Source: Persephonella sp. (GTDB lineage: Bacteria > Aquificota > Aquificia > Aquificales > Hydrogenothermaceae). Taken from it: a DNA stretch of 5,795 nt. This document shows positions 2,031 through 5,795 of the stretch, piece after piece; the stretch's first letter is position 1, and each line of letters opens with the position of its first letter. The position numbers and the translations under genes were made by a program. A model generated the notes under the pieces. The model made no database searches. It saw only the letters and a program-made list of their open reading frames with translations, and was not told where the DNA came from. The stretch spans positions 1 to 5,795 of the forward strand of contig JALTAS010000017.1 of assembly GCA_027058925.1 (NCBI GenBank), given 5' to 3'.

Positions 2031-3932
2031 ATGGAAAAGCTGAAAAAGATCCGTCAGGAAAGGAACAAAAGGATAAATAAGATAGAGCTTTTAAAACAGG
2101 AACACTCCCCTCAGGAGGCGTGGGAGAAGCTTGAGTATTATGCAGAAAAGGGTTTTTCATCAATACCTGAACATGATCTTAATTACTTTTTTAAATGCTT
2201 CGGGATTTTCTACAGACCTGCCACACCTGAGAGGTTCATGATAAGGGTTAGAATACCCGGTGGAAGGCTTTCTTATAGGCAGGCTGTAAAGATAGGACAG
2301 GTGGCTAAGGAGTATGGGAATGATTACATAGACCTCACAACAAGAATGCAGGTTGAGCTCAGGTACATAAAAATAGAGGACATACCGCATATTTTAAAAG
2401 AACTTGAGAGTGTAGGAATAACAACATTTCAGACAGGTGTTGACAACTTTCGGAACATTGTTCAGGATCCGTTAGACGGCGTCGCTTTTGATAATGTGAT
2501 CCAGACATGGGAAATACTTCTGAAGATGCAGGATATCTTCCTGAAAAAAGAAGAATGGGTGTGCAAACTTCCAAGGAAGTTTAACATCTCCATATCAGGT
2601 AGTTTCTCAAACAGGTGTAATGTTTACGGTCATGATCTTTGTTTTGTTCTTGCTGAAAAAGACGGAATTTTCGGCTTCAACGTTTTCCTGGGAGGGAAGG
2701 TTGGAGCTGTTGCTAGGCCTGCCGATGTGTTTTTACTGGGGGACGAAGTCCCCTCCTTTTTTGAAGCTCTTGGAAAGGTTTTCAAAAAATATGGTTTCAA
2801 AGACAGCAGGAATAAAAACAGGCTGAAATATCTGATAGATGCTGTAGGTATTGATGAGCTTATTAAAGCTGTTGAGATAGAGGGAGGAAGGGGGTTTGAG
2901 AGAGCAGGAATAACACAAACTCCTGTTAGAGGGGGAGACAAAACAGGAAAGGTTCAGTTAAAGGACGGGACCTTTGCCCTTCACATGGTTGTCCCGTCCG
3001 GTATCTTTTCAGGTTCGGCAGTAATAGAGGCTGCAGAAATTTCAAAAGAGTACGGCAGTGGAGAACTGAGGCTTACAGTTGAACAAAACCTGTATATAAT
3101 AGGTATTCCGGAGGAAAATCTACAAAAAGCCCTATCTCAACCTGTTTTCAAAAAATACAAAAATAAAGACTCTATCTTTTTCTCAGACCTTATAGCCTGT
3201 GCAGGAACAGAGCACTGTCCTTTTGGTGTTATTCCCAACAAACCTGATGCGATAGAAACAGCCAGATACCTGACAGAAAAATTTCCTGATCTTGAAGGAA
3301 AAGTAAGGATGTACTGGTCTGCATGTCAGAAGGGCTGCGGTATCCACGGTTTTGGGGATATTGGTTTTGTGGGGGTTAAGTTCAGGATGAACAGACAGCC
3401 TGTTTTAGGTGTAGATATGCACATAGGGGGAACTATAACGGGAGAAAGCGAGGAAGGAAAGCTTCTTATAAAAAACCTTCCCCTTGAAAAGGTCAAGTTT
3501 TATGTTAGTGAGCTTGTAGAAGAATACTCAAGACTGAAAAAAAAGAAAGAAACTTTTGAGGATTTTTACAGAAGGGTTTTAAAAAGGCTTTCAAAGGAAG
3601 CAGTAAGGTTTTTAATGGTTTTTAACAACCTGATGAAAGAAAAAGGATTAGACTACAGAGTTGAGATAAATGATCTTGTCCTTGGAAGGTTCTCAGAGGA
3701 AGAAGAGATTTTCGGATACGGTTTTCAGCTTTACAGACAGATAACAGGGAAAAATCCTTACACAAGACCTAACATTCTGGAGATTTACGATCAGCTCCAG
3801 CCTGATAAACCGTCAAACTTTTCTGACATACCAAAATCTTTAGAAACAGTTGTTATAAAAATGATCTCAAAAGATCCTAAGAAAAGATACAAGGTTTTCA
3901 CAGAGATAGAAGAAGATCTAAAGAATTTATAG
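2031..3932 (+). CDS. nirA: Ferredoxin-nitrite reductase (siroheme/4Fe-4S), with a C-terminal kinase-like extension
   Basis: NirA reduces nitrite to ammonium with six electrons, normally from reduced ferredoxin, in the cytoplasm. The 633-residue protein has the usual duplicated layout. A first ferredoxin-like half lies at about 53-150 (FMIRVRIPGG at 69-78, TTR at 103-105, DNFRNIVQDPLDG at 138-150), followed by a siroheme-binding segment with LPRKFNISISG (180-190). A second half is at about 305-365. The cluster ligands are C-x5-C (Cys390, Cys396) and C-x3-C (Cys432, Cys436), the last also bridging to siroheme. There is no flavin or NAD domain, which points to a ferredoxin donor. The start is supported by AAAGGT six bases upstream and by an N-terminus (NKIELLKQE) that aligns with known NirA proteins. 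The position after TTR reads MQVEL, where plant and cyanobacterial enzymes have QNIQL. Typical NirA proteins end near residue 510-530 on this numbering; the remainder is unusual and listed separately. Sulfite reductase is the main alternative, but narK and narB downstream argue for nitrite. Confidence 0.92.
   Translation: MEKLKKIRQERNKRINKIELLKQEHSPQEAWEKLEYYAEKGFSSIPEHDLNYFFKCFGIFYRPATPERFMIRVRIPGGRLSYRQAVKIGQVAKEYGNDYIDLTTRMQVELRYIKIEDIPHILKELESVGITTFQTGVDNFRNIVQDPLDGVAFDNVIQTWEILLKMQDIFLKKEEWVCKLPRKFNISISGSFSNRCNVYGHDLCFVLAEKDGIFGFNVFLGGKVGAVARPADVFLLGDEVPSFFEALGKVFKKYGFKDSRNKNRLKYLIDAVGIDELIKAVEIEGGRGFERAGITQTPVRGGDKTGKVQLKDGTFALHMVVPSGIFSGSAVIEAAEISKEYGSGELRLTVEQNLYIIGIPEENLQKALSQPVFKKYKNKDSIFFSDLIACAGTEHCPFGVIPNKPDAIETARYLTEKFPDLEGKVRMYWSACQKGCGIHGFGDIGFVGVKFRMNRQPVLGVDMHIGGTITGESEEGKLLIKNLPLEKVKFYVSELVEEYSRLKKKKETFEDFYRRVLKRLSKEAVRFLMVFNNLMKEKGLDYRVEINDLVLGRFSEEEEIFGYGFQLYRQITGKNPYTRPNILEIYDQLQPDKPSNFSDIPKSLETVVIKMISKDPKKRYKVFTEIEEDLKNL
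3684..3929 (+). other. C-terminal tail of NirA resembling the end of a Ser/Thr protein kinase C-lobe
   Basis: Residues 552-633 of NirA resemble subdomains IX-XI of Hanks-type kinases. EIFGYGFQLYRQITGKNPY (559-577) parallels the D-[IV]-[FY]-S-x-G-x-x-L-[YF]-x-x-x-T-G-x-x-P-[FY] helix, with Glu559 where kinases have the invariant Asp. IPKSLETVVIKMISKDPKKR (600-619) then parallels the last helices, including KDPxxR with the conserved Arg at 619. The Gly loop, the VAIK Lys, HRD and DFG motifs are all absent, so the tail cannot phosphorylate. The reading frame from the reductase is uninterrupted, with no stop or shift at the junction. The region between (about 510-551) is a charged helical linker of unknown affinity. 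The resemblance was judged by eye, not by a profile search. Confidence 0.6.
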
Positions 3933-3945
3933 AGGTGCAAAGAGG

Positions 3946-5256
3946 ATGAAAGATTTTGAGGTGAAGGGAAGCCCTCAGATAGGGCTTATTATGGCAACAT
4001 TTGGATTTTTTATAGGGTTTGCTGCAGTCTCCCTTTATGGACCTGTTGCAAAAAACCTTAAAGAGATATTAGGGTTATCAGGTTTTTTACTCGGTCTTTT
4101 AATCGCAGCACCTAATCTGACCGGTTCTCTTCTTAGAATACCTTTTGCAGCCTGGGTTGATAAGGTTGGTGGAAAAATACCCCTTGCCACACTTTTAACA
4201 TTATCTGTAATAGGTATGGCTGGACTCTCAACCCTTTTATACCTTTACTATCCTGATCTTGAACCATGGATGTACTGGCTTATACTCTTTTTTGGTTTTT
4301 TAAGTGGATGCGGTATAGCAACATTTTCTGTAGGTATAGCCCAGACAGCATACTGGTTCCCTGAAAGTAAGCAGGGATTTGCTCTTGGTGTTTATGCTGG
4401 TGTTGGAAATCTTGCACCGGGAATATTCGGAATGATACTTCCGTTTGCACTCAAGGAAATAGGCCTCACGACATCTTACATTCTGTGGTTTGGGTTTCTT
4501 TTGGTCGGAACAGTTATTTATATAATTTTTGCTAAAGATGCCCCATACTTCCAGCTCATAAAAGCCGGAGTTCCAAGGGAAGAGGCTATAAAAAAAGCAA
4601 AAGAGCTTGGACAGGAACTTATACCTACGGGAAGTTTGATAGAGTCTTTAAAAAATTCAGCAAGGCATATAGAAACATGGGCACTGGTAGCCCTTTATTT
4701 TGTATCTTTTGGAGGTTTTTTAGCCCTTACAGGCTGGTTTATAGTGTTTTGGGTTCAGTCTTACGACATGGAAGTTAGACATGCCGGTCTTCTGATGGCT
4801 TTTGGTTTTTCCCTTCTTGCATCTGTAATAAGGATATTTGGAGGCTGGATTTCTGACAAAATAGGAGGAGAGCTTGTATCAATAATAGCATTCTTTATGG
4901 TTCTTGTTGGGGCTGTTGTGATAATGACAGGGGGAAATACAAATTTCAGCATATCCCTTGCAGGAGAAATACTAATGGGAGCAGGTATGGGAATATCCAA
5001 TGGAGCTGTTTTTAAGCTTGTTCCCAAGTATGTTCCCCATGCTACAGGTGGAGCTGCCGGTTGGGTAGGAGGTTTGGGTGCTTTTGGGGGATTTGTTGTT
5101 CCTCCAATCTTAGGACTGTTTGTTGAGACACACGGAATACTGGGATACTCCAAAGGTTTTATAGTGTATGTAATGCTGTCTATGACCGCGATATTTATAT
5201 CTGCAGTTTTATGGAGGGCTTACGGAAAGGAGATAAACAAACCAATTGAGGAGTAA
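3946..5256 (+). CDS. narK: NarK/NNP-family MFS nitrate/nitrite transporter
   Basis: A 436-residue inner-membrane protein with about 12 hydrophobic segments in the 6+6 arrangement of the major facilitator superfamily. Family features of the nitrate/nitrite porters are present: Arg64 in helix 2 (GSLLRIPF) and Arg296 in helix 8 (SVIRIFGGWISDKIGG), the pair that binds the anion in NarK. The two nitrate signature stretches AGVGNLAPGIFGMILP (151-166) and AGWVGGLGAFGGFVVP (371-386) are also present. The A-loop motif after helix 2 reads DKVGGK (72-77). A charged cytoplasmic loop at about 197-240 (EEAIKKAKELGQE) joins the two halves. The start has AGAGGTG eight bases upstream, and the gene follows nirA after 13 bp. 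Between nirA and an assimilatory nitrate reductase the likely job is nitrate uptake, perhaps with nitrite exchange. Whether it is a proton symporter or an antiporter cannot be read from sequence. Confidence 0.92.
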   Translation: MKDFEVKGSPQIGLIMATFGFFIGFAAVSLYGPVAKNLKEILGLSGFLLGLLIAAPNLTGSLLRIPFAAWVDKVGGKIPLATLLTLSVIGMAGLSTLLYLYYPDLEPWMYWLILFFGFLSGCGIATFSVGIAQTAYWFPESKQGFALGVYAGVGNLAPGIFGMILPFALKEIGLTTSYILWFGFLLVGTVIYIIFAKDAPYFQLIKAGVPREEAIKKAKELGQELIPTGSLIESLKNSARHIETWALVALYFVSFGGFLALTGWFIVFWVQSYDMEVRHAGLLMAFGFSLLASVIRIFGGWISDKIGGELVSIIAFFMVLVGAVVIMTGGNTNFSISLAGEILMGAGMGISNGAVFKLVPKYVPHATGGAAGWVGGLGAFGGFVVPPILGLFVETHGILGYSKGFIVYVMLSMTAIFISAVLWRAYGKEINKPIEE

Positions 5257-5260
5257 CAAG

Positions 5261-5795
5261 ATGGAGGAAATACTGGCCACAGCACAGTGTCCATACTGTG
5301 GTGTAGGATGTGGTCTTGAGATTTTTAAGGATAAAAAAGGTAGGATAAAAGTAAGGGGGGATAGAAATCATCCTGCTACAAAGGGAGATCTGTGCCTTAA
5401 GCCGATACCATACCCAAAGGTAATGAACATCGGCAGAATTCCAGCTCCACTTTACAGAGAAAACAAAAAAGACCAGTTCAGAAAAATAAGCTGGGGAGAA
5501 GCCTTTGAGATAATAGCATCAAAACTAAGACAGAACAAACCCGACCAGAACTATTTTTATATTTCAGGACAGCTCACAACAGAAGATAGCTATGTAATAA
5601 ACAAATTTGTTAAAGGTTTTGTCAGAACCAATAACATAGACGCAAACTCAAGGCTGTGCATGGCATCGGCTGTTATGGGCTATAAGATGGCGTTCGGTTC
5701 TGACGGTCCTCCTGGAAGTTATGAGGACATAGATGATGCTGACGCTTTTATCTTTGCAGGGTCAAATGCTGCGTGGACTCACCCTGTCCTGTTTA
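5261..5795 (+). CDS. narB: Assimilatory nitrate reductase, Mo-bisMGD catalytic subunit (N-terminal part)
   Basis: The first 178 codons of a molybdopterin oxidoreductase are visible, open to the right edge; full-length relatives have roughly 700-900 residues. The N-terminal 4Fe-4S motif is complete: C-x2-C-x3-C-x27-C at Cys10, Cys13, Cys17 and Cys45 (CPYCGVGCG, then GDLCLKP). NSRLCMASA follows at 129-137, where Cys133 is the expected Mo ligand of the NapA/NasA/NarB group; formate dehydrogenases have Cys or selenocysteine at this place in a different context. The absence of a Tat signal fits a cytoplasmic assimilatory enzyme rather than periplasmic NapA. It reduces nitrate to nitrite, which NirA then uses. 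The start is four bases after the narK stop, with GAGGAG overlapping the end of narK, so translation is probably coupled. Klebsiella-type literature names the homologue nasA; the electron donor (ferredoxin or an NADH-linked subunit) is not determinable from this part. Confidence 0.92.
   Translation, partial: MEEILATAQCPYCGVGCGLEIFKDKKGRIKVRGDRNHPATKGDLCLKPIPYPKVMNIGRIPAPLYRENKKDQFRKISWGEAFEIIASKLRQNKPDQNYFYISGQLTTEDSYVINKFVKGFVRTNNIDANSRLCMASAVMGYKMAFGSDGPPGSYEDIDDADAFIFAGSNAAWTHPVLF

Follow-up and report, generated by a model that had tools for sequence, protein, structure and literature searches.

The closest described counterparts of the protein considered here are the assimilatory nitrite reductases of the ferredoxin type (NirA), the PknB-type Hanks serine/threonine (Ser/Thr) kinases, and the pseudokinases. 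Tobacco Nii3 and Nii4, spinach NiR and M. tuberculosis NirA contain repeated NIR_SIR_ferr and NIR_SIR domains with four conserved cysteines, and ferredoxin-type NirA genes have nitrate-assimilation genes as neighbors. The window (contig G000:C17, all 5,795 bases) comes from a Hydrogenothermaceae/Persephonella-like genome bin of 262 contigs with a completeness of 78%. It encodes a 633-residue NirA that resembles these reductases in domains, cysteines, gene neighbors and fold (template modeling score, TM-score, 0.83-0.85 by target length). Unlike the solved NirA structures, whose chains of 535-546 residues end without a tail, the window NirA continues into a C-terminal tail that is almost certainly homologous to the end of a kinase C-lobe. 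With PknB-type kinases the tail shares helices F-I, the aromatic/Gly pattern of helix F, a GxxPF/Y turn and the Arg of subdomain XI; it differs from them in the absence of the N-lobe, ATP site, HRD, DFG and activation segment, and in having Glu where these kinases have the helix-F Asp. Pseudokinases, which retain both lobes, likewise have a kinase fold without catalysis (e.g., MLKL and a domain of Rv3910, which we take to be a pseudokinase; both appeared in the list of fold matches). In contrast to these two-lobed proteins, the NirA tail is limited to roughly the final third of a kinase domain and is carried by a metabolic enzyme. Our preferred reading, with a probability of roughly 0.5, is that NirA and catalytically empty PknB-type helices F-I were joined, likely once, and that the tail is likely a rigid cap with a docking surface for a pathway partner.

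The features of nirA are listed below. Row counts refer to alignment A3, which contained 88 of the 121 tail-bearing proteins (43 Hydrogenothermaceae-type and 45 of 53 Campylobacterota-type).

2031..3932, + strand: nirA, 633 residues, a single open reading frame with a siroheme nitrite/sulfite reductase body and a C-terminal tail
3198..3338, + strand: four cysteines, residues 390, 396, 432 and 436, Cys in 88 of 88 rows
3528..3683, + strand: end of the reductase proper at residues 500-519 (motif of the ESFEDFYRRV type), then a linker containing a single helix (522-537)
3684..3929, + strand: kinase C-lobe-like tail, residues 552-633, match proper from about residue 556
3696..3746, + strand: helix F equivalent, residues 556-572, from alignment to kinases
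3750..3815, + strand: helix-G-like region, residues 574-595
3834..3863, + strand: helix H equivalent, residues 602-611, in the tail and full-length models
3885..3887, + strand: R619, at the place of the conserved subdomain XI Arg; 83 of 88 rows have Arg here
3897..3920, + strand: helix I equivalent, residues 623-630, in the tail and full-length models

Of the 23 NirA-family proteins in the tail-less comparison set, 17 came from other Aquificota or from G018, a Hydrogenothermaceae genome without the tail; five were from plasmids, and the last was L116. In 22 of these the alignment to the window NirA ended at residues 467-537 (mostly 515-516) and the stop followed 2-28 residues later; the remaining protein, L116, was a distant paralogue with an unrelated 340-residue extension. 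The window NirA extends about 100 residues beyond the tail-less proteins, and its tail follows an ordinary NirA C-terminus and is not a variant of that C-terminus.

Residues 552-633 scored 19.3 bits against PF00069 (E = 8e-4), under the gathering score of 31.7 bits, and gave partial matches to the NCBIfam profiles PRK13184/PknD (E = 1.1e-10, profile positions 209-289) and PknB_PASTA_kin (E = 1.2e-9, positions 189-267). The PDB profile match of the tail to kinases reached 2e-7. Profile-profile comparison with 30 Aquificota kinases gave scores of 60.9 for the 43 Hydrogenothermaceae-type rows and 65.8 for the 45 Campylobacterota-type rows, while chance controls did not exceed 23.9 and 21.2, respectively, for 50 column shuffles each, or 18.7 and 21.3 for 12 stretches of reductase body per group. 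The tail model had a predicted local distance difference test score (pLDDT) of 91, and all 50 of its fold matches listed were kinases or pseudokinases.

Profile and predicted fold agreed in placing helices F-I of the C-lobe (subdomains IX-XI) within residues 556-633, with E559 (Glu in 88 of 88 rows) at the position of the helix-F Asp. Kinase profile matches started at position 173-175 of 263 and covered kinase columns 180-250 of 251. No N-lobe, ATP site, HRD, DFG or activation segment was found in the tail, and a Pfam scan of all 633 residues gave no kinase match outside it. Alignments to kinases started near residue 558 and showed no kinase sequence upstream of helix F; the helix at 522-537 was not detectably helix E, and some VIA-align rows extended back to tail-model residues 22-41, inconsistently. 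Convergence of a short, unrelated helical bundle on the appearance of helices F-I is very improbable, given that sequence and fold indicate the same kinase segment, in register and independently from the two groups of NirA, and that no non-kinase family occurred among the 60 profile matches and the two sets of 50 fold matches listed. The preliminary description had held that NirA runs about 100 residues past its usual end, that its last 82 residues resemble kinase subdomains IX-XI, with KDPKKRY (residues 614-620) carrying the conserved Arg, and that an ATP site, HRD and DFG are lacking. The alignments to tail-less relatives, the Pfam, NCBIfam and PDB profiles, which covered the C-lobe end only, and the predicted fold bore out each of these points.

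The tail profile detected 29 tails in 136 Aquificota genomes, all in Hydrogenothermaceae, bacteria that inhabit hydrothermal vents, together with seven weaker matches that coincided with real kinases. Family names within this genome set were assigned indirectly, that of f1 from named loci and that of f2, likely Aquificaceae, from its thermoglobin-like gene. A NirA match was present in 30 of 41 Hydrogenothermaceae genomes, namely the 29 tail-bearing ones and G018, whose tail-less NirA (42% identity) belongs to another clade. All 27 Hydrogenothermaceae NirAs that could be read to the end of the frame contained tail and body in one frame; in G083 tail and body lay on two contig edges, and G051 contained a tail piece only (residues 519-632). 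The NirA gene of G087 (L028/L045) is interrupted by a change of frame around residue 172-184, either an assembly error or a pseudogene.

A first tail search returned 58 matches, solely Hydrogenothermaceae-type NirAs, and a word search with the Nitrosophilus tail, limited to exact words, found only that tail among 101 candidates. The best 120 of 3,888 matches of a protein search with full-length NirA contained, after the Hydrogenothermaceae sequences, 53 proteins of 629-649 residues with 49-53% identity over 97-100% of the query, all tail-bearing among the matches listed. The phylum of these sequences was taken from the named ones (Nitrosophilus, Sulfurimonas, Hydrogenimonas, 'Campylobacterota bacterium') and from the tree. 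A hidden Markov model (HMM) of the tail matched 121 of 121 tail-bearing proteins, 33 of them outside its training set, and none of the 23 tail-less ones; it also matched 25 of the 30 kinases. Nineteen of the 20 plasmid NirAs listed (of 109 records) aligned no further than residue 534, and the other, from Thermus, aligned to residue 595 over an adjoining uroporphyrinogen-III synthase. Tails may exist outside Hydrogenothermaceae and Campylobacterota. Precomputed Pfam columns for the 120 listed relatives gave reductase domains alone, with the tail unannotated, and no description of such a tailed NirA was found in the open-licence literature. The tail-bearing proteins appear to form a NirA subfamily overlooked by present domain annotation.

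A tree of 13 Hydrogenothermaceae-type and 14 Campylobacterota-type tail-bearing rows with 22 of the 23 tail-less proteins (paralogue L116 excluded) placed all tail-bearing NirAs in one clade on a long branch (support 100/100). The Hydrogenothermaceae clade was nested within it (100/100); Campylobacterota may be paraphyletic to it (83/42). This single clade suggests one old fusion, which very likely gave rise to all tail-bearing NirAs, and the simplest reading adds a later transfer between Hydrogenothermaceae and Campylobacterota, in either direction. NirB-NirA-type fusions of f2 (frames mostly 945-1064 residues) have a related NirA body and lie in nitrate-assimilation clusters of genomes from the taxonomic order to which the window belongs. 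They differ in an N-terminal extension (a FAD/NAD-type half, named by eye), in the absence of a kinase-like tail and in their clade.

The fusion partner would have been a PknB-like kinase gene. L047 from G050 scored best against the tail among the 30 kinases. Some proteobacterial nitrate-assimilation clusters contain a Ser/Thr kinase. A nitrate-operon kinase was considered as donor and rejected: only one of 20 Aquificota kinase loci (5-19 kb), that of G040, had a gene of the NirA family nearby, at a distance of about 2.5 kb or less and encoding a paralogue with 27% identity, and no relevant report on such a donor was found in the open-licence literature. The preliminary description had also raised docking of a kinase. 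Kinase C-lobes are known as interaction surfaces, and kinases scoring above the Pfam cut-off occurred in four (G012, G015, G023, G051) of the 15 good-quality tail-bearing genomes (at least 90% complete, at most 5% contaminated). That a Hanks-type kinase controls nitrite reduction by docking on the tail or phosphorylating it is nevertheless highly unlikely, because the other 11 of these genomes had no PF00069 match above the cut-off. The near absence of NirA-family genes from the kinase loci speaks against it as well, and four kinase queries of 15 named nirA loci matched only the tail itself (eight loci), with no kinase gene beside nirA. These loci largely duplicate genomes of the main set (e.g., L032 = G061:C161), and the two counts were not summed.

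The tail is under purifying selection within Hydrogenothermaceae. The ratio of nonsynonymous to synonymous substitution rates (dN/dS) was 0.022-0.257 for the tail (552-633) and 0.030-0.120 for the body in 10 Hydrogenothermaceae pairs, which overlap and in some of which dS exceeded 1. Mean identity over 300 pairs, excluding the incomplete L025 and L028, was 0.67 for the tail and 0.78 for the body. Conservation in Hydrogenothermaceae was 0.84 for the helix-F part, 0.83 for the helix-G-like part and 0.83 for the body on average; in Campylobacterota the body averaged 0.77 and the helix-G-like part 0.58. The connecting residues 520-555 were poorly conserved (0.64 in Hydrogenothermaceae, 0.57 in Campylobacterota). 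Residues conserved across both groups were E556, E559, F561, G564, Y568, Y577, M611, F623 and E625, of which E556, E559, G564, M611 and E625 were invariant in 88 of 88 rows.

The tail comes, in truncated form, from an unrelated enzyme family and has lost most kinase residues, as would be expected of debris from an old fusion, kept in frame by chance. This origin, once put forward for the tail, is contradicted by its low dN/dS, by the residues invariant in both groups and by the retention of the tail in every NirA readable to its end, and is extremely improbable; maintenance in frame, the opposing suggestion of the preliminary description, agrees with the same data.

The reductase body was well defined. 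NIR_SIR (PF01077) and NIR_SIR_ferr (PF03460) each matched two stretches, with 130.5 and 118.5 bits against Pfam cut-offs of 27 and 24, and the four cysteines occupy what we take to be the ligand positions of the [4Fe-4S]/siroheme center. The full-length model (pLDDT 92.9; predicted TM-score, pTM, 0.90) had its best PDB matches in the assimilatory nitrite reductases of tobacco, M. tuberculosis and spinach. NF007125, the ferredoxin-nitrite reductase NirA equivalog, was the best NCBIfam match at 351.3 bits; this is under its 594-bit cut-off, and the protein was therefore filed as NirA-like, outside that equivalog. Databases name relatives of the window NirA ferredoxin-nitrite reductase, and reduction of nitrite to ammonia is the predicted reaction of the enzyme.

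The full-length pTM of 0.90 exceeds the ceiling of 0.885-0.891 calculated for a perfect body with the 82-residue tail misplaced by 20-25 Å (a misplacement of 15 Å would permit 0.903), which lends some confidence to the modeled position of the tail on the body. The tail thus probably packs rigidly on the body, as a non-catalytic cap. Within it, E556 and E559 (before and in helix F) together with R619 would hold the helix core, replacing the lost contacts of the kinase APE-Glu and HRD. The helix-G-like surface may bind a partner, with the electron donor and the operon's NasA as candidates. Docking beyond stabilization is the weaker half of the proposal and is put forward tentatively.

A stabilizing cap alone, completing the C-terminal side of the reductase fold with no partner, would fit the predicted firm packing and the location of the residues conserved across both groups, all of which fall in the stretch aligning to kinase helices F-I. 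It is somewhat unlikely, in that tail-less NirAs occur in other Aquificota from similarly hot niches, that Campylobacterota, not all of which are thermophilic, have retained the tail, and that a helix-G-like region as conserved as the body in Hydrogenothermaceae would be unneeded for bare filler. A stabilizing cap in a thermophile had been suggested earlier; the cap role is kept as part of the preferred reading, and the limit to thermophiles is not, since the NirA of Sulfurimonas, a largely mesophilic genus, also carries the tail. It is quite unlikely that the kinase-derived tail of NirA and a globin-derived tail of NasA hold the two reductases together with nitrite channeled between them.

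When a kinase fold becomes inactive, the domain is usually retained whole. In NirA roughly a third of a kinase domain survives alone on a nitrogen-assimilation enzyme and is conserved in two phyla, and what was a fragment of a signaling enzyme now appears to serve a metabolic enzyme as a structural element. The tail offers a clean test case for the abilities of a kinase C-lobe without the remainder of the kinase. If it does dock a partner, an unknown assembly would exist in the nitrate assimilation of vent chemolithoautotrophs.

The other genes of the window were:

168-863, divergent from nirA, upstream: glutamine amidotransferase
867-1868, - strand, upstream of nirA and divergent: trpD-like gene
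3946..5256, + strand: narK-type nitrate/nitrite transporter (MFS_1, 6.9e-34; TIGR00886 NarK family, 1.5e-45, under its cut-off)
5261..5794, + strand: nasA-type molybdopterin nitrate reductase, start only, truncated by the contig end

A narK-type gene followed nirA in 11 of the 15 named loci, the L043 copy with only 25% identity. The window nasA seems to continue on G000:C29:19176-21008, where a frame fits the C-terminal part of NasA. A trpD-like phosphoribosyltransferase paralogue was found within 4 kb of nirA in nine of the 15 named loci (Hydrogenothermaceae), and near nitrate-assimilation genes also in an f2 cluster (L135:4064-5008). An archaeal-type ATPase fragment (3-176, + strand; PF01637, 1.6e-8) begins before the contig edge, stops after 57 residues and adjoins the 3' end of the amidotransferase gene.

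Gene neighborhoods also bear on the regulator P-II, which the tail might bind, as the preliminary description had suggested for PII-like signaling, or whose cluster-borne P-II-like form it might replace. P-II occurred in 101 of 101 genomes. Among 29 tail-less nirA genes, at least 13 (those of 12 f2 genomes and of G018) had a P-II gene no more than 5 kb away. None of the 29 tail-bearing nirA genes had one on its contig at a distance of 10 kb or less. Against this, the two operon types fall in different NirA clades, so the exclusion may be mere descent; f3 genomes lack the tail and also any listed P-II gene close to nirA; several tail-bearing contigs are shorter than 10 kb; and the P-II gene of G073 lies 3.5 kb from nasA. 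The inverse pattern of P-II and tail may reflect descent or a functional swap, and a link of the tail to P-II is improbable.

Hydrogenothermaceae NasA contained a C-terminal globin domain (PF00042, 3e-15 at L037:9241-9726 and 2e-13 at L041:5392-5877). This NasA-globin fusion was present in 27 of the 29 tail-bearing genomes; it was absent in G009, and the G053 sequence was cut. G009, with a NirA tail but no NasA globin, shows that the tail is independent of the globin. The globin position presumed to be that of the proximal heme ligand was His in L037 and L041 and Tyr in the Persephonella-type rows L032, L033, L034, L044 and L046; the Tyr-bearing globins would be heme-less. The globin part of L041 matched thermoglobin and a nitric oxide dioxygenase at about 2e-19. 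Scans of NasA from L032, L033, L044 and L046 gave no Pfam globin match, and L032 and L033 still matched thermoglobin (5e-6 and 2e-6), a protein treated in PMC3820574. The NasA of G003 (L132) contained one in-frame TGA in the globin part where relatives have Trp, through sequencing error, a recent nonsense change or another cause.

Five f2 genomes had a free-standing globin gene between nirA and nasA, and the G056 cluster also had cyanase and P-II. The f2 clusters L135 (G056:C1:124500-136000) and L134 (G044:C1:1013000-1024500) contained an NirB-NirA-type fusion and SUMT-like, globin, cyanase, P-II, NarK-type and NasA genes. Domain checks for globin, cyanase, P-II, trpD-like and MFS were confined to L135, and the other f2 cluster assignments were made by eye. 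In addition to its trpD-like gene, the L135 cluster contained two P-II domains in one frame.
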